DNA of 64,000 bases from Thermogemmata fonticola (GTDB taxonomy: Bacteria; Planctomycetota; Planctomycetia; Gemmatales; Gemmataceae), in NCBI RefSeq assembly GCF_013694095.1, contig NZ_JACEFB010000018.1, forward strand, positions 1-64,000, read 5' to 3'. The position numbers and the translations under genes were made by a program. Positions 3,165-13,631 of the stretch are shown here, piece after piece; within the stretch, counting starts at the first letter, position 1; every line of letters begins with the position of its first letter. Below the pieces are notes generated by a model. The model saw nothing but the letters and a program-made list of their open reading frames with translations, was not told where the DNA came from and did no database searches.

Positions 3165-5114
3165 TCAGCGTGCACTGTGCGCGGAACGGGACAGCCATCG
3201 GCTGGTGACGTTGATGCACAGGACCAGGACCAGCAGGATGAAGGCGCCGGCCCAGGCGAGGCGCTGCCAGGCTTCGTCGGGTTTCTGAGCGAAGTCGTAC
3301 ACGTAGAACGGCAAGGAGGGAGTCGGGTCGGCCAGGGAACGGGGGAAGAATTGGGAGCCGCGGGCCGTCAGGATGAGGGGGGCCGTCTCGCCGAGGATTC
3401 GTCCGGCCGCGAGCAGGATACCGGTGAGGATGGCCGGCCAGGCCGCCGGAAGCAACACAGCCCGCAGAGTCTGCGCCCGCGTCGCTCCCAAGGCGGCTGC
3501 CGCTTCCCGCAGTCCCGCCGGCACCGCACGCAGCGCTTCTTCCGCCGCACGGGCCACCACCGGCACCATCATCACTGCTAGGGCAAAGGCCCCGGCATAC
3601 GCCGAGTAACCCCACGGGCGGCTGCTCCACGGCGGCGAGACCAGCAAAACGTAGCCGAACACGCCGATCAGGATCGACGGCACGGCGGTCAGCCACTCCG
3701 CAGCGCGGCGCACCAGACCGTTGAGCGGATGCTGCGGATATTCGCTCAGGAAGATGGCCACCAGCACGCCCCAGGGGACGGCCACTGCCGCCGCCAGCAG
3801 CACCAGGATCGCGCTGCCGTACAGGGCGTGGGCCAATCCCGGCGGCTCATCCCCCGGCAAGTGGGTAAAGACCGCCCAGGAAACTTCCCCCGCCCCTTGA
3901 TACGTGATGTACCCCAGAATCAGGAACAACGGCAGAATGGTCAGCCACTGGCAGAGGGCGAGCAGCCAGCTCATGATGCGGTCGATCCGCGCTGCCCCAC
4001 GGCGATTCGCCGCCCGGCGGAACGTGGCCGGCGTGATGCTTTCCCCAGAGAGCCGCTGCGGTCCGACATCCGGGGGCGGCTCCGCAGTGGGAAATGAGGG
4101 AGCGGAGGAAGCCGAGAGGGAAACCGAGGAAGACCGCCGCCATTTCCAGAATCGCCACCAGGCATAGCGTGCGGATTGACCCGTTACCTGGTGGCGCACC
4201 ACCGCTCGGCCTGCACTGTTCATCAGCCACGCCAGCAGCAGCAGGAGCAGTCCCAGAGCCATCAGCACCGCTCGCCGCGGTTCCTGCGGCGTGGTCTCAT
4301 GCAGTTGCTTGGCAATCAGGCTGGGAATCGTGTCCCCCGTCGCCGTCAGGGAGAAGTTGAAGTACTGGGCATTGCCGATGACCATCGTGACGGCCATGGT
4401 CTCGCCCACGGCCCGGCCCAAGGCGAGCAAGATGGCAGCGACAATCCCTGGCCGAGCAACCGGAAGAATCACGTGCCGGATCATCTGCCACCGCGTCGCT
4501 CCCAAGGCCAAGGCGCCTTCCCGCAACGCCAGAGGGACCGACCGGCAGGCGTCGTAACTCAGGGCCGTAATGTACGGCAACACCATCACGGACAGGACCA
4601 AACCCGCCGCGAGCAGCCCTTCCCCGGACGCCTGCTTCCACCCGGCCCAGGCATAAAGCGGTCCGAGCAGCCGTCGGGCAAGGAACTCCAAGGCCCAAAA
4701 GCCGAACACCACGCTGGGAATCGCCGCCAACAGTTCCAGAAAGAAGGCACTGATGCGCCGCCGCCTCGGTGTGGCCAGCTCCGACAAATATACCGCCGTC
4801 CCCACTCCCAACGGCACCGCCACCAGCAAGGCAATCGCCGAAGTGACGCAACTGCCGTACACGAACAGCAAGGCCCCATAGGAGCCGCGCTCCGGGTCCC
4901 AATTGGTACTGCTCAGCAGGTTCCAAAGGCCCAGATGCCCCAGCGCCGGCCAGCCCTGATGCAGCAGCACGGCGATCAGAGCCGCCGCTAAGATCAGCAC
5001 TCCCCCAGCACCGCCCTGGCAAATCAAGGCCACCAGCCGATCGCTGCTCAGCCGTCCCCGCAGGACCCAGCCGAGGAAAAAACGGCGGACCGCTGATGGC
5101 GGAGGAGGTGTCAT
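3165..5114 (-). CDS. pstC-pstA: fused phosphate ABC transporter permease PstC-PstA
   Basis: One 649-residue frame contains both Pst permease subunits. Residues about 15-320 are PstC-like, with membrane segments and the EAA-type loop EGALALGATRWQMIRHVILP. Residues about 380-645 are PstA-like, with a second EAA loop REAAAALGATRAQTLRAVLLP and GRILGETAPLI. They are joined by a Ser/Pro/Arg-rich linker near 320-380 with no stop codon or frame slip. In most bacteria these are two genes of roughly 300 residues each. The protein forms the inner-membrane channel through which phosphate delivered by PstS passes, driven by PstB. It lies 12 bases after the pstS stop in the same operon. The fusion is intact; its linker is predicted to be cytoplasmic. 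Confidence 0.93.
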   Translation of the reverse strand: MTPPPPSAVRRFFLGWVLRGRLSSDRLVALICQGGAGGVLILAAALIAVLLHQGWPALGHLGLWNLLSSTNWDPERGSYGALLFVYGSCVTSAIALLVAVPLGVGTAVYLSELATPRRRRISAFFLELLAAIPSVVFGFWALEFLARRLLGPLYAWAGWKQASGEGLLAAGLVLSVMVLPYITALSYDACRSVPLALREGALALGATRWQMIRHVILPVARPGIVAAILLALGRAVGETMAVTMVIGNAQYFNFSLTATGDTIPSLIAKQLHETTPQEPRRAVLMALGLLLLLLAWLMNSAGRAVVRHQVTGQSARYAWWRFWKWRRSSSVSLSASSAPSFPTAEPPPDVGPQRLSGESITPATFRRAANRRGAARIDRIMSWLLALCQWLTILPLFLILGYITYQGAGEVSWAVFTHLPGDEPPGLAHALYGSAILVLLAAAVAVPWGVLVAIFLSEYPQHPLNGLVRRAAEWLTAVPSILIGVFGYVLLVSPPWSSRPWGYSAYAGAFALAVMMVPVVARAAEEALRAVPAGLREAAAALGATRAQTLRAVLLPAAWPAILTGILLAAGRILGETAPLILTARGSQFFPRSLADPTPSLPFYVYDFAQKPDEAWQRLAWAGAFILLVLVLCINVTSRWLSRSAHSAR

Positions 5115-7663: not shown

Positions 7664-9466
7664 TTAACTCTTGTGCAAGATGGGGATGGCGCCGCTCCAG
7701 GAAGCGGGGGGCTTGCGATTGTGTTGGAGGATGATTTCCATGAGGAGGTCTTTGCCGCGGTCGTCGGGTGGGATGCGATGGAGGAGGCGGTAGGCTTCGT
7801 CCCAGTGGCCTGCGAGGAAGGCATCGAGGGCTTGTTCGTAGGTGGTGATGTCGCTGTCGCTCAGGGGGGCCAGCGGACCGGCGGGAAGCAGTTCGGCCAC
7901 GGTGAGGGGGCGGGTCAGCCCTGCGGGGATGAGGCGGGCCAGCCGGCGGACGCGCAGAAGCGAGCCGCTCTCACTTCCTTGCCGCAGGGCCGTGGCGGTG
8001 GCCTCGTCCAGAAGGATGGGAACGCGCAGGAGGCGGGTCAGGTCTTGCAGGCGCGCCGCGAGATTGACCGGCGGGCCGAAAACTGTGACTTTGACTTGCT
8101 CCGCCGTGCCGATGCCGCCGGCCACTGCCCGGCCGGAGGCGATCCCGATGCCGGCACAAAAACCGTGCAGGATGTGGCCTTCGTCCTGGCTCTTCGCGGT
8201 CAGCTCCCCGTGAATGTCCAGGGCGGCCAAGGCAGCATCACGCATGCGGGCGGGCTGCGGTGTCGGCCAACCCCAGAAGCCGAGAGCCGCATCCCCCAGG
8301 AAATCCGCCACGACTCCCCCATGCCGCAGGATCGCCTGGGTCATAATTCCCAGAGCGGCGCTGACCCGTTGCAAGGCTGGCAGTAGGTTTCCCTCCGCGG
8401 CTTCCACCGTGCGGGAGAAACCCCGCAGATCGCAGAAAAGCACGGTGACATCCGCCTCACGCGGTTCCAGCGCTTCCCCCGCGGCTCGGCTGCCGAGCAG
8501 CTCCAGCACGGCCGGCGAGAAGAAGCGGCGGAACAAACCCTGCCGTTCCTGCAACTGCTGCACCTGCCGCAGCGCCCCGTAGATGTCCGCCACCAGCTCC
8601 GCGAACTTGATGTCTTCGTGGAGTTGCTGTTCGTGCCACGGCAAGGGAGTGCCGGCTGCCGTCGCGAAACGCCCCGCCACGTACAACCCTCTTTCTGGCC
8701 CGCTCTCCTGGCGCAACGGTGTGCAGAAAGCCCAATCGAAGCTCTCGTGCAGAGTGTAAGCCGCAGCCGAAGCAGCGGGGGCAGACGGAGAGGGAGGCGA
8801 AGAGGAGGACGCTGAGCCAGCGGGCGGCCAAAGGTGCAGCACCGTCTGACGCTGTTCGCGCAGGGCCTGGCGGATCAGCCGCCGGCTGGGCAGGAAGCGC
8901 CCCTCGCCGCTACGCCGCCGGTCCCAGAAGAGAACGGCCTCCGTGGTAACGATGGCCGCCGCCTCGGCAGAGCGAATCCCGGCCAGGAGCAGGTCCACCA
9001 GGCGGGCCAGTCCCTCGCGTTCATCGGCGGCGCTGCGGATGACCTCCGGCAAGCGGCGGAGGACGTCCAGGCGGCGAGGCGCATCCCGAAAGGGAACCGC
9101 TTCCAGCTCCTGCACCGTGATGGTGCGGCTCTGGACCGGCAGGGGGTCGGCTGCCTCGCCGGGCTTCTCGGAATCCGCCTCCAGCGTGAAGAGGGTCCGC
9201 CCGATGACAAAACTGTCCCCCACCTCCAGTACGGCCTCTTCGACTTCAGCACCGCGGTGAAAAACGGGATTCCTCGCTTGAGGCAACCGGCGGAGACAAA
9301 CCGCGGACCCTTGCACCTGCAATTCGGCATGGCGGCGCGACAGAAATGGTTCCCACGGCACAGGCCAAGCTCCGCTCGCGCGTCCGAGGATGACGCTGCC
9401 TTGCGGCGGGAGGGGACGCCGCCAGTGCTCGGTCGGTTCCGTACCCTGGGCCACCAGTATCAGCAT
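7664..9466 (-). CDS. FHA-domain class III adenylate/guanylate cyclase
   Basis: A 600-residue signalling enzyme. Residues about 20-95 form an FHA domain, with ILGRASG and the FLSRRHAEL block carrying the Ser, Arg and His used for phosphothreonine recognition. Residues about 150-310 look like a GAF-type sensor, interrupted by a Ser/Pro/Ala-rich insert. Residues about 340-540 are a class III nucleotide cyclase domain: VTVLFCDLRGFSR has the first metal-binding Asp, FLGDAALGFWG the second, and VNLAARLQDLTR the conserved Asn/Arg block. The usual GD before VNLA is replaced by GPP, so the ATP/GTP preference is unclear. A short TPR-like tail follows. It lies downstream of the transmembrane kinase gene on the same strand, so phosphorylation-dependent recruitment or control is plausible (inference). 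Confidence 0.88.
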   Translation of the reverse strand: MLILVAQGTEPTEHWRRPLPPQGSVILGRASGAWPVPWEPFLSRRHAELQVQGSAVCLRRLPQARNPVFHRGAEVEEAVLEVGDSFVIGRTLFTLEADSEKPGEAADPLPVQSRTITVQELEAVPFRDAPRRLDVLRRLPEVIRSAADEREGLARLVDLLLAGIRSAEAAAIVTTEAVLFWDRRRSGEGRFLPSRRLIRQALREQRQTVLHLWPPAGSASSSSPPSPSAPAASAAAYTLHESFDWAFCTPLRQESGPERGLYVAGRFATAAGTPLPWHEQQLHEDIKFAELVADIYGALRQVQQLQERQGLFRRFFSPAVLELLGSRAAGEALEPREADVTVLFCDLRGFSRTVEAAEGNLLPALQRVSAALGIMTQAILRHGGVVADFLGDAALGFWGWPTPQPARMRDAALAALDIHGELTAKSQDEGHILHGFCAGIGIASGRAVAGGIGTAEQVKVTVFGPPVNLAARLQDLTRLLRVPILLDEATATALRQGSESGSLLRVRRLARLIPAGLTRPLTVAELLPAGPLAPLSDSDITTYEQALDAFLAGHWDEAYRLLHRIPPDDRGKDLLMEIILQHNRKPPASWSGAIPILHKS

Positions 9467-9813
9467 GCCGTGCGATCCTTTATTAGCATAAAGTTCGATC
9501 CGTTCGGAACCGCCGCTTCGGGATTTCCGCTGCCCCTTCCCTTCCCTCTCATTCCCGCTGCCGTTTCCCTTCCTTCCATCTGCCGCTGTTTCCTTCTTAC
9601 CGCCCTCCGTTGTCTTGGGATCGTCAGTCGCCTGCCGGTGTTATCCCAGGGCGCTCTCCCCCTGCGAATGGGGCTATGGAGCCGAGCGGTATCAGGGAAT
9701 GTTGCCGGCCGAGCCGGTTCATCCGCATCCCGTCGCCTTTCTTTGCTTTGCAGCCCGCCGGTCGGCTTCGCAAGTCCAACATGCGGACCAGGCGAAGCAA
9801 GCAGGGGGAACAC
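9467..9813. other. gap between kinase and cyclase genes
   Basis: Holds a strand-asymmetric tract (purine-rich on the gene strand) made of a 28-bp repeat at 9528-9611, listed separately. No further gene is seen. Confidence 0.4.
9528..9611. repeat. 28-bp degenerate tandem repeat, 3 copies, pyrimidine-rich
   Basis: Units start at 9528, 9556 and 9584, each beginning CGCTG followed by C/T-rich sequence. The array lies 60-145 bases upstream of the cyclase start. Confidence 0.6.
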
Positions 9814-12036
9814 TCATGGTTTATTATCGGCCCAGGTAGCGGGTTGAGATGTCGAGCGCGGTGTGGCCAGAGGGACCGTAGGGGTGGGCGTGTGGAGGGA
9901 TTCCGGCCAGGGAGGCGGGGCGAGCCAGCGGCGGAAGAAACGAGCCAAGCGGGAGGAGGGCACCGGCTGGAACAACGCCGTCAACCCCGTGGTCCAGACG
10001 ACAAACAGGAGCACAAGCAGGCCTAGGGCCGCCGCCGCACCCAAGCCCAGCCGCCATTGCAAGGCCCGCACTGGGGCCAGGACTTCGTCCCGCCGCTGCT
10101 GCACCAGCACCACAAAACCGCTATCCAGGGGATGCTCTTCATCCGCGAGGATGGTGACCGGCACCGCCGCCGCCAGCCAGCTTCCCGCGAAAGCCGGATC
10201 ATCCACCGGATCGGTGTAAGACTCGAACCAGACACCCGCGGAAGGGGAGGCCAGGGCGGGAGCATCCTGCACCGGCTGGGCGACCAGGGCTTCGACCACG
10301 TTGTGAGCGTAGTACAGCGGCAGGTTCTCATCCGGCAGGTCGGGAGGCAGGCGGGTCATGTACGGATGGCGGATGATCAGACCGGCGCGCCCTTCCTTCT
10401 CGTCCGGCCGGCGGTCGATGAGCACGGAAAAGCGGGGCGTATCCGCCGGGGCTGCGTCTTGCTTGAGGTCGACCGACATCGCCAGCACGCCGATCGGTTC
10501 CAGATCATCTGGCATGGCATAGACCGGGACACTGAAGGTGACGGTCCAGGTGCGTGTACTGCGGCGGCGGTACACCAGGGAGCGGTGGGGGGCGGTGATG
10601 ATGGCCTGCGGCGGGCCGGCTCTGTCCTCGGGAAGATTGTGCCCCAGACCGGTGAAGTAGTCGCGGTAGCCGAAGTAGTGCAAGCGGAAGCGGCTGGAGG
10701 GCGATGCGCCGCGAAGGATGCCGTCGGCATCGAGGGCCATCCACAGCGAGGCTTCGGAACCGGCGCGGAAATCCCGATTGTATTTGGCCCGCCGTTCCGT
10801 GAGCCACTGCTCCAGCGCCACTTGGGCCTGGGGATTCTCGGCGAAGCGGTCATCGGTGAGCCACTGATGCAGTTGCGGATCGGCGGCCTCAAACTCCAGC
10901 AGCCGCCAGCGGTGCTCGATCTCCATCGCCAGTTGATTGGCTTCCGCCGCAGCCGCGAAATGATTGGCCGCCAGGGCACGCTGCACCACTTCCCGTTCCG
11001 CGGTGGTGATCGTGGTGTAGAACCCATAGGCGCCCAGGAGGGAAAGGATCAGCAGCAGGCTGGCAAAGGCAGCGGCGGTGATAGCCAGCAACGGGCGGCG
11101 CAGGCGTTGCAGTTGCCAGGCGTCCAGGGCGGAGAGCACGGCCTGGGGATTGGGGTAGCGTTGCTCCGGCTGAACCGCCAGGCAGCGCTCCACGATCGCG
11201 GCCAGACCCGCATCCACGCCCGGCACCTGGCGGTGACCGCGGGGAGGGGGTGCTGTCAGCAGATGCTGGCGATAGGCGGCCAGGCGCTGGGACAGAGGCA
11301 GGGCCTCATGCCACGGACCCTCGCCGACGTAGGGCGGCACGCCGGTGAGCATGCGGTAGAACACTGCCCCCAGCGCATACACGTCCCAGCGGGCATCCGG
11401 CACCGCCTCCAGATCGGCCTGTTCCGGGGCCATGTAAAACAGCGTGCCTAAAGCCGGCGAGGCTTCCTGCACCAATCGGGCCTGGCCAAAGTCCGCCAGA
11501 CGGGGCCGACGCTCGCGGTCCAGCAGAATGTTCGCCGGCTTCAAATCGCAGTGCAGAATCCCCTTGTCATGCGCCTGGATCAACGCCACGGTGATCTCGC
11601 GGAAGTAAGCGACCGCCTGGTCCACCGGCAGCGCCCCCTGCGCCTGGAGCAGCTCCTCCAGCGAGCCGTTCTCCATGTACTCCATGACGTAATACGGCGG
11701 GTCAGCCTCCCAACCGATCTCGAACAGTTGCACCACGGAACGCTCAGAGAACAGATGCCGAAGTTTGTCCACTTCCCGCGCCAGACTGGTCCAATCCACT
11801 CCTCCGCGGTCGGTGAAAAACTTGATGGCCACCTGCCGGCCGGTGTTGCGGCTGATCGCCGTCCAGACCTCGCCATACGCCCCGCGGCCCAGAAAACGCT
11901 GCAACGTGTAGCCCGGCACCTGGGGGATGCGCCGCCCCCCGCGCCGGCTCAAAGCCTGAGCCGTAGCGTATTGCTCCCGATCCATGCGCGGGGTGCTGTC
12001 CCCTGGCCCGGTTGCGTTGTCCCCACTGTTCGTCAT
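9814..12036 (-). CDS. transmembrane Ser/Thr protein kinase with extracytoplasmic Cache-like sensor
   Basis: A 740-residue Hanks-type kinase. The kinase domain spans about 43-300: glycine loop LGRGAYGEVW, ATP-binding Lys in VAIKFF, catalytic loop ILHCDLKPANILL and metal site LADFGQA. The usual Arg before the catalytic Asp is Cys (HCD instead of HRD), suggesting activity that does not depend on activation-loop phosphorylation. A membrane segment near 312-335, a region of roughly 330 residues outside the membrane and a second segment near 670-692 follow; the region between resembles a double-Cache ligand sensor (YFTGL, SVPVYAM, GVLAMSVDL). Placing the sensor C-terminal to the kinase is a planctomycete habit. 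ATG 12036 is chosen; the frame upstream is repeat sequence. Confidence 0.87.
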   Translation of the reverse strand: MTNSGDNATGPGDSTPRMDREQYATAQALSRRGGRRIPQVPGYTLQRFLGRGAYGEVWTAISRNTGRQVAIKFFTDRGGVDWTSLAREVDKLRHLFSERSVVQLFEIGWEADPPYYVMEYMENGSLEELLQAQGALPVDQAVAYFREITVALIQAHDKGILHCDLKPANILLDRERRPRLADFGQARLVQEASPALGTLFYMAPEQADLEAVPDARWDVYALGAVFYRMLTGVPPYVGEGPWHEALPLSQRLAAYRQHLLTAPPPRGHRQVPGVDAGLAAIVERCLAVQPEQRYPNPQAVLSALDAWQLQRLRRPLLAITAAAFASLLLILSLLGAYGFYTTITTAEREVVQRALAANHFAAAAEANQLAMEIEHRWRLLEFEAADPQLHQWLTDDRFAENPQAQVALEQWLTERRAKYNRDFRAGSEASLWMALDADGILRGASPSSRFRLHYFGYRDYFTGLGHNLPEDRAGPPQAIITAPHRSLVYRRRSTRTWTVTFSVPVYAMPDDLEPIGVLAMSVDLKQDAAPADTPRFSVLIDRRPDEKEGRAGLIIRHPYMTRLPPDLPDENLPLYYAHNVVEALVAQPVQDAPALASPSAGVWFESYTDPVDDPAFAGSWLAAAVPVTILADEEHPLDSGFVVLVQQRRDEVLAPVRALQWRLGLGAAAALGLLVLLFVVWTTGLTALFQPVPSSRLARFFRRWLAPPPWPESLHTPTPTVPLATPRSTSQPATWADNKP

Positions 12037-12117: not shown

Positions 12118-12169
12118 GCATCTTACACCGCTGTGATGCAAAAGCATCTTACACTGCTGTTATCCGAAT
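12118..12169. repeat. 26-bp direct repeat, 2 copies
   Basis: Both units begin GCATCTTACAC, starting at 12118 and 12144. Degenerate toward the 3' end. Confidence 0.65.
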
Positions 12170-12492: not shown

Positions 12493-12759
12493 ATCGAAGC
12501 CGCTCCCGCCCCACGGATGGCAGCGGCAGAGCCGCCACAGACCCTTGAGACTGCCCCGCCACGGACCGTACTTGCGCACTGCGGCGATGAAATACTCGCT
12601 GCAACTCGGCTGGAAGCGGCACATGTTGGGAGGCAGTAGCGGCCGGATCAGCCCCTGATAGAGGCGAACCAGACCGATGAGCAGAGCAGCCGCCCCCTGC
12701 CGGCAAAGATGGCCGGTCGAGCGCACCGCTGCCGCGAGCCAAGCCAGCCAGGGTTTCAC
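12484..12759 (-). CDS. yidD: membrane protein insertion efficiency factor YidD
   Basis: A 91-residue protein that helps insertion of inner-membrane proteins together with YidC. The diagnostic block is [20 protein letters not shown], with the conserved Cys residues, followed by [19 protein letters not shown]. Its GTG start at 12759 overlaps the rnpA stop as GTGA (4 bases), and GGAG sits eight bases upstream, so translation is coupled to rnpA. The frame stays open far upstream inside rnpA, but that part is an antisense-like, Ser/Gly-rich shadow. The rnpA-yidD order is conserved in many bacteria. Here no yidC follows; instead a repeat-filled gap and the kinase gene. Confidence 0.93.
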
Positions 12760-13424
12760 GATCGTTTCTCCGGCGCAAGGGAAGCGGACGCGGGCGAGTT
12801 CGAGGCCAAAGGCGCTTCCTGAACCCCAAGGGCTTCCTGAACCCCAAGGGCTTCCTGAACTGGGGGTGGCTCCTGCGCCCCAGGTGCTTCCTGAGTCATC
12901 GGGGGTTCCTGAACGGCGGGTGGTTCCTGGGTGGGCGGCGATTTCTGCTGCGCCGGTGGTTTTGGCGGGGAAGGAGACGGGGCAGCCTCCGCGAGCCGGC
13001 GGGACAAGCGGCGGGCCAGACGCATCAGCGAACGCCGAATGGCCTCCAGAGAGGGAACCTCCGCAGTGAGACGGGGCAGAACCACGTAGTCGATACCGGC
13101 GGGCAGTTCGTGCTGCGACAGGCGAAAGGCTTCCCGGAGCAGCCGCTTGAGGCGATTGCGGCGCACCGCCTTGCCCCACTTGCGGGATACCACGCAGCCC
13201 AGGCGCGGGTAAGGCAGTTGGCTCGGATAGCCATAAACGATCAACACCTCGTCAGCAGTGGAGACTTTGTGGGCGAAACAGCGCTCAAACTCCACGGCCC
13301 GCTTGAGGCGCAAGTGAGCCGGAAAGGTGTAACGGCGCGGCGGGTTCCCTCTCCCTGACACCGCTTCACCTGCTCCTCCACCCTCCGGTGCGACACTGGG
13401 TGGGAGCGGCTGTCCCCCCTTCAT
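12756..13424 (-). CDS. rnpA: ribonuclease P protein component with repetitive C-terminal extension
   Basis: A 222-residue protein, about twice the usual RnpA length. Residues about 31-145 are the RnpA core, binding the RNase P RNA and pre-tRNA leaders; the RNR motif is seen in [17 protein letters not shown]. The N-terminal 30 residues are Pro/Gly-rich. The C-terminal 75 residues are a low-complexity tail built of hexapeptides such as QEPPPV and QEALGV, encoded by an 18-bp minisatellite. The ATG at 13424 is preferred because GGAGGAGAAGGG stands directly upstream; upstream ATGs at 13580 and 13595 lack a ribosome-binding site. No rpmH gene precedes it, unlike the common rpmH-rnpA order. The stop overlaps the yidD start. 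Confidence 0.93.
12814..12939. repeat. 18-bp in-frame minisatellite in rnpA, 7 copies
   Basis: Units step by 18 bases from 12814; the first two are identical (GCTTCCTGAACCCCAAGG) and the others drift. They encode the hexapeptide repeat of the RnpA tail and keep both the rnpA frame and the opposite yidD-upstream frame open. Confidence 0.88.
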
Positions 13425-13631
13425 CGGTCCCTTCTCCTCCGGCTGTTGGATCGGCCCCGCCTCCTCCGCTCGTGGCGGTCCGGCAGTCGTCAGCGCACGC
13501 GGTTCGATCGGCAGCGGCGGAGTCGGATCGGGAGGTCGTTCGCCGCCTTCCCCCGACTTCCGAGAGCCATCCGGAAGCATGGAGTGCGAGAGCATAGCGG
13601 TTGCAGGAAGAGCAGCCTCGCCGGAGCGGAA

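Follow-up and report, generated by a model that had tools for sequence, protein, structure and literature searches.

A transmembrane Hanks-type kinase and an FHA-domain class III cyclase that co-occur across Planctomycetia form a candidate signalling relay

Organization of the kinase and cyclase locus

The window analysed here is a stretch of 64,000 nucleotides of Thermogemmata fonticola DNA (contig NZ_JACEFB010000018.1, positions 1 to 64,000), in which a gene for a transmembrane Ser/Thr kinase and a gene for a nucleotide cyclase with an FHA domain are found next to each other on the minus strand, just as an earlier note on this DNA had claimed. The kinase gene (9814-12036) encodes 740 amino acids when counted from the ATG at 12036, with a possible earlier start of its open reading frame (ORF) at 12147, and its end is separated by 347 base pairs (bp) from the start of the 600-amino-acid cyclase gene (7664-9466). 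Pfam identifies a Pkinase domain in the first protein and the FHA and Guanylate_cyc domains in the second. The AlphaFold models of the two proteins have a mean predicted local distance difference test score of 84.0 and 89.8, respectively. The following elements, all on the minus strand, are referred to below:

9814..12036, minus strand: transmembrane Hanks-type Ser/Thr kinase with a dCache-like sensor
11983..11994, minus strand: T15-P-R-M18 in the N-terminal extension, candidate phosphothreonine docking motif T-x-x-[Q/M] (sequence conservation)
11140..11910, minus strand: kinase domain, residues 43-299, with HCDLKPAN (non-RD) and DFGQ
11008..11091, minus strand: transmembrane helix 1, residues 316-343 (hydropathy; a long helix in the AlphaFold model)
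10057..11007, minus strand: putative extracytoplasmic dCache-like sensor, residues 344-660
9994..10050, minus strand: transmembrane helix 2, residues 663-681 (hydropathy)
7664..9466, minus strand: protein composed of an FHA domain, a middle domain and a class III cyclase
9176..9466, minus strand: FHA domain with G28 R29, S43, H46 and N66 (residue conservation among homologues)
8528..9115, minus strand: middle domain, residues 118-313, with a GAF-like order of strands and helices (secondary structure of the AlphaFold model)
7862..8467, minus strand: class III cyclase catalytic domain, residues 334-535
8303..8305, minus strand: D388, occupying the site where canonical adenylyl cyclases have their adenine-specifying lysine
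7667..7861, minus strand: conserved C-terminal extension spanning residues 536-600 (W590 and G592 identical in 63 sequences; helices 537-551, 555-562 and 570-581)

The kinase and the cyclase are retained together

The presence of the two genes was determined by matches in a class-wide sample of 158 Planctomycetia genomes. Both genes were found in 83 genomes, the cyclase alone in 13, the kinase alone in one and neither in 61, for totals of 96 genomes with the cyclase and 84 with the kinase. The association is far beyond chance, with a Fisher p of 1.5e-29 for the class and 5e-4 inside the family of the source genome alone, values that overstate independence as they ignore the shared ancestry of the species. 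Across 244 sampled genomes of the phylum, none of the 38 matches fell outside the class.

At least 43 of the 83 two-gene genomes have the genes side by side, often with an overlap: 42 by match coordinates and one more (G040, where the kinase match is partial) at the level of the locus. The earlier note had proposed conservation of the pair across Gemmataceae as a check: adjacency is kept across the class, and the pair is not limited to that family, but adjacency is broken in the remaining genomes, about 40 of the 83, where the genes are mostly apart and both are still kept. Of 101 loci carrying a cyclase homologue, 30 have a same-strand kinase as the gene immediately upstream, at a spacing that mostly ranges from an 8-base overlap, seen in five loci, to 347 bp. 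Starting from cyclase loci that have no kinase next to them, 47 genomes were reached, of which 42 carry exactly one kinase orthologue elsewhere. The paired kinases resemble each other in the sensor region as well as in the kinase domain, with the exception of a diverged subgroup (L039, L047). Taken together, genetic coupling of the kinase and the cyclase is very probable, and their joint retention or loss across planctomycetes suggests that the kinase controls a second messenger.

In four of the 13 cyclase-only genomes (G010, G119, G164 and G191), a diverged kinase carrying both HCD and DFGQ is encoded near a copy of the cyclase. Some genomes contain such a diverged second version near a cyclase copy (L212, L213, L214, L215), with no clear N-terminal motif. 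In several paired loci of other planctomycetes (L036:5152-5745, minus strand; L085, L091, L108, L116 and others), the cyclase is followed by a gene of about 200 codons for a response regulator receiver protein, which is a possible third component.

Sequence features of the paired kinases

The kinase displays the catalytic K, D and DFG of Hanks-type Ser/Thr kinases: PF00069 matches the window protein with an E of 8.5e-45, and HCD[LI]KP and DFGQ are present in all 30 adjacent kinases. In structural comparisons, which cover the kinase domain and the catalytic domain of the cyclase, the kinase domain matches Stk1/PknB (Z 28-29). All 30 adjacent kinases share HCD[LI]KP[AG]N and DFGQ; the other kinases read in the source genome have HRD, HGD or HLD, and none has HCD. 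Judged by these motifs, the paired kinase is a distinct lineage, marked by HCD for HRD and by DFGQ. Kinases in which the R of HRD is replaced are of the non-RD type and, as a rule, need no activation-loop phosphorylation. The features of an RD-type PknB-like kinase are absent, as HCD is found throughout and no threonine is conserved from DFG to the GT of the P+1 loop.

The earlier note described the kinase as Cache-sensing. The orthologues point the same way, with dCache_1 matches in 21 of 29 (best E 3e-15), as do the two helices that flank the region, whereas the window protein itself remains under the dCache_1 cut-off (E 0.05). Weak profile matches connect the region to the dCache chemoreceptors 4wy9 and PctA.

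A conserved threonine in the kinase and the FHA domain of the cyclase

The N-terminal extension that precedes the kinase domain is modelled with low confidence and is poorly conserved apart from T15, which is present in 96% of 28 aligned orthologues and is the only highly conserved threonine besides the catalytic T198. The corresponding motif, T-x-x-[Q/M], is found in 60 of 64 related kinases, adjacent and unlinked alike, compared to a mean of 15.4 and a maximum of 24 for shuffled sequences, and most kinases have a Ser/Thr 15 residues past the motif threonine. This motif fits the mode of FHA recognition, in which a threonine is read together with a set residue at +3. A similar string is present in 9 of 33 other kinases of the same genome, mostly in the form T-x-F-Q and with different N-terminal surroundings. 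The four related kinases without the motif are L098 and three proteins that have no sensor homology (L039, L047 and L139), and L138, one of the 60, matches only via a string elsewhere and is better grouped with these exceptions. L139 is the kinase of G008, the sole kinase-only genome, which carries no cyclase of this family.

In the model of the cyclase, an N-terminal all-strand part (the Pfam FHA domain) is followed by a middle alpha/beta domain; then come a long helix, the catalytic domain and a C-terminal helical extension. The G-R, S-x-x-H and N elements of FHA domains are all present, and the phosphate-binding residues are kept among the homologues: R29 in 100 of 101, S43 in 93 of 101, H46 in 98 of 101 and N66 in at least 90%. 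The middle domain gave no Pfam GAF match in 63 members and no match in a profile search of the PDB, and only its predicted order of strands and helices is GAF-like.

Two other docking sites on the kinase were considered and rejected: a Ser/Thr-rich C-terminal tail, which is conserved in neither sequence nor length, and an activation-loop threonine used in the PknB manner, as the loop contains no conserved threonine. The +3 residue (Q or M) was also compared with the FHA columns for covariation; the best column shared 0.65 bits but tracks the split between Gemmataceae and the rest, and was set aside as uninformative.

The kinase and the cyclase could also cooperate in another way, with the kinase phosphorylating the cyclase or a third protein, the FHA domain reading that site, and T15 serving dimerization or turnover. 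Co-occurrence and adjacency, which show coupling only, are compatible with such an arrangement; the Bdellovibrio cyclase DgcB is activated via its own phosphothreonine tail (PMC6733907), and in the diverged pairs the FHA domain is kept where the motif is gone. However, the FHA domain of the cyclase begins at residue 1-2, which leaves no room for a DgcB-style N-terminal tail, and T15 is the sole highly conserved non-catalytic threonine of the kinase, with a fixed residue at +3. We regard this arrangement as unlikely, although it is the most probable of the alternatives.

Catalytic residues and the possible product of the cyclase

The catalytic domain has the class III fold, with a PF00211 (Guanylate_cyc) match above the cut-off (E 9.7e-9) and OaPAC as the best structural match (Z 22.8, root-mean-square deviation 2.0 over 207 residues). 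The metal-binding D346 and D392 and the transition-state residues N468 and R472 are invariant in all 101 homologues, and catalysis is therefore plausible. Instead of the lysine that, together with Asp/Thr, characterizes ATP-specific adenylyl cyclases, the family has an aspartate: D388, which aligns to the lysine of OaPAC and of the 6fht cyclase, is conserved in 99 of 101 homologues, and because of it we do not classify the protein as an adenylyl cyclase. The second nucleotide-specifying position is a threonine in most members and a glycine in 21. Guanylyl cyclases have a glutamate at the adenine-lysine position and a varied second residue (C/S/T/H/A/G) (PMC4215837); the first position of the family is Asp in place of this Glu. 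The replacement of the adenine-specifying lysine by an aspartate hints at cyclic GMP (cGMP) as the product, which is a fair guess and not a result.

The same substitution raises the prospect that the altered domain is not a cyclase at all and, for example, binds another nucleotide. The near-invariance of D388 and the presence of GP instead of the usual GD ahead of VN speak for this possibility. Set against it are the invariance of both metal aspartates and of the transition-state N and R, the acidic residue (E) that guanylyl cyclases likewise have at this position (PMC4215837), and the genomic context of paralogous cyclases. In a D-G clade of such paralogues, a class II cyclic-nucleotide phosphodiesterase is encoded one or two genes away in 12 loci, confirmed by Pfam (PF02112) in one member (L114:9828-10592) and similar by clustering in the 11 further loci, which we take as an argument for cyclic-nucleotide synthesis by the family. 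Loss of cyclase function is thus distinctly improbable. PF02112 has no match in the source genome. The sole cNMP-binding domain found in this genome belongs to a fusion protein, in which it follows an ABC transporter ATPase at the C-terminus (L132:367-1824, G000:C22), and is a possible receiver of the cyclic nucleotide.

A model of the proposed relay

Combining these observations, we propose the following model, in which the earlier note's relay from a ligand via the kinase, phosphothreonine and FHA domain to the cyclase is retained. The extracytoplasmic dCache-type sensor would bind a ligand and set the activity of the cytoplasmic kinase domain, which would autophosphorylate T15 in the flexible stretch ahead of it. 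The FHA domain of the cyclase would then bind phosphorylated T15, reading the Q or M at +3, and this docking would bring the cyclase to the receptor and alter its output. The product would be a 3′,5′-cyclic nucleotide, perhaps cGMP given the aspartate at the adenine-lysine position.

This relay is consistent with all computed results, including the co-occurrence of the two genes where they are apart, and as a hypothesis from sequence it appears well supported, the earlier proposal being in this sense partly supported. Several points weigh against it. Besides the overstated independence of the Fisher p-values, no kinase partner is detectable in nine genomes of the class sample that carry the cyclase, the FHA match of the window protein is barely above the cut-off (PF00498, 21.8 versus 20.7 bits, E 2.5e-4), and the diverged pairs L039 and L047 combine an FHA cyclase, its phosphopeptide residues kept, with a kinase that has no clear T-x-x-[Q/M]. 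That the phosphothreonine of this motif recruits another FHA protein, with the cyclase FHA domain reading another kinase, is conceivable in a genome with about 50 matches to Pkinase and 15 to FHA but is very unlikely, as the kinase and the cyclase are retained or lost jointly and the kinase of the only kinase-only genome is without the motif. The window's own cyclase is the single PF00211 match in that genome.

On balance, we slightly favour a dedicated two-protein relay that would operate by docking of the phosphorylated tail of the kinase on the cyclase FHA domain. The full version of this idea is more tentative, and we consider it doubtful: an ancient receptor-kinase-to-cGMP pathway of Planctomycetia, in which phospho-tail docking of a Cache-sensing non-RD Hanks kinase would activate a guanylyl cyclase that is FHA-gated and recognizes its nucleotide by a new D-T/D-G pair.

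Relation to known systems

Hanks kinases are known to signal via FHA effectors that regulate metabolism or act as a transcription factor, as in the PknB-GarA, PknG-OdhI and PknH-EmbR pairs, and these effectors, unlike the one proposed here, are not nucleotide cyclases. The nearest tested parallel is the FHA-GGDEF protein DgcB of Bdellovibrio, in which an FHA domain likewise gates second-messenger synthesis: it docks a phosphothreonine tail via a +3 pocket, activating the diguanylate cyclase (PMC6733907). DgcB differs in having a GGDEF domain, a tail of its own and an unknown kinase, whereas the window pair has a class III domain, a conserved threonine located on the kinase, and a known kinase gene.

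A Hanks kinase and a class III-like cyclase are also part of one signalling unit in Pkn2 of Myxococcus xanthus, which is, however, a single polypeptide for which the portion of the source available to us describes no FHA or Cache domain (PMC1262709). The TOMM kinase/cyclase fusion (TIGR03903) similarly places both activities within one system but in one fused protein, and the window kinase scores 64 bits against its cut-off of 706. The guanylyl cyclase Cya2 of Synechocystis (2w01; PMC4215837) shares the class III fold (Z 20.1), an acidic residue at the lysine position and, with part of the window cyclase family, a G at the second position; its pair is E-G, whereas the family has D-T or D-G plus an FHA domain.

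Our literature search, which covered open-licence papers only, returned no paper joining FHA, class III cyclases and planctomycetes, and no planctomycete cyclic-nucleotide pathway turned up in it. Planctomycetes contain dozens to more than 100 Hanks kinases (PMC11032199 and our own-genome count). One of them becomes directly testable here, as it has an FHA-bearing effector to which it is genetically tied and a candidate phosphosite that can be named. If true, the relay would link Ser/Thr phosphorylation and cyclic nucleotides in one bacterial receptor pathway.

Neighbouring genes

A conserved operon with pstB was ruled out, as pstB is on the opposite strand and convergent. Elsewhere in the window, a single ORF of 649 amino acids (3165-5114, minus strand) matches PstC (residues 36-308) and PstA (379-644) and corresponds to a fused phosphate permease. 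The rnpA ORF (12756-13595, minus strand), which encodes the RNase P protein, has about 90 additional residues ahead of the domain, with its start codon being putative.

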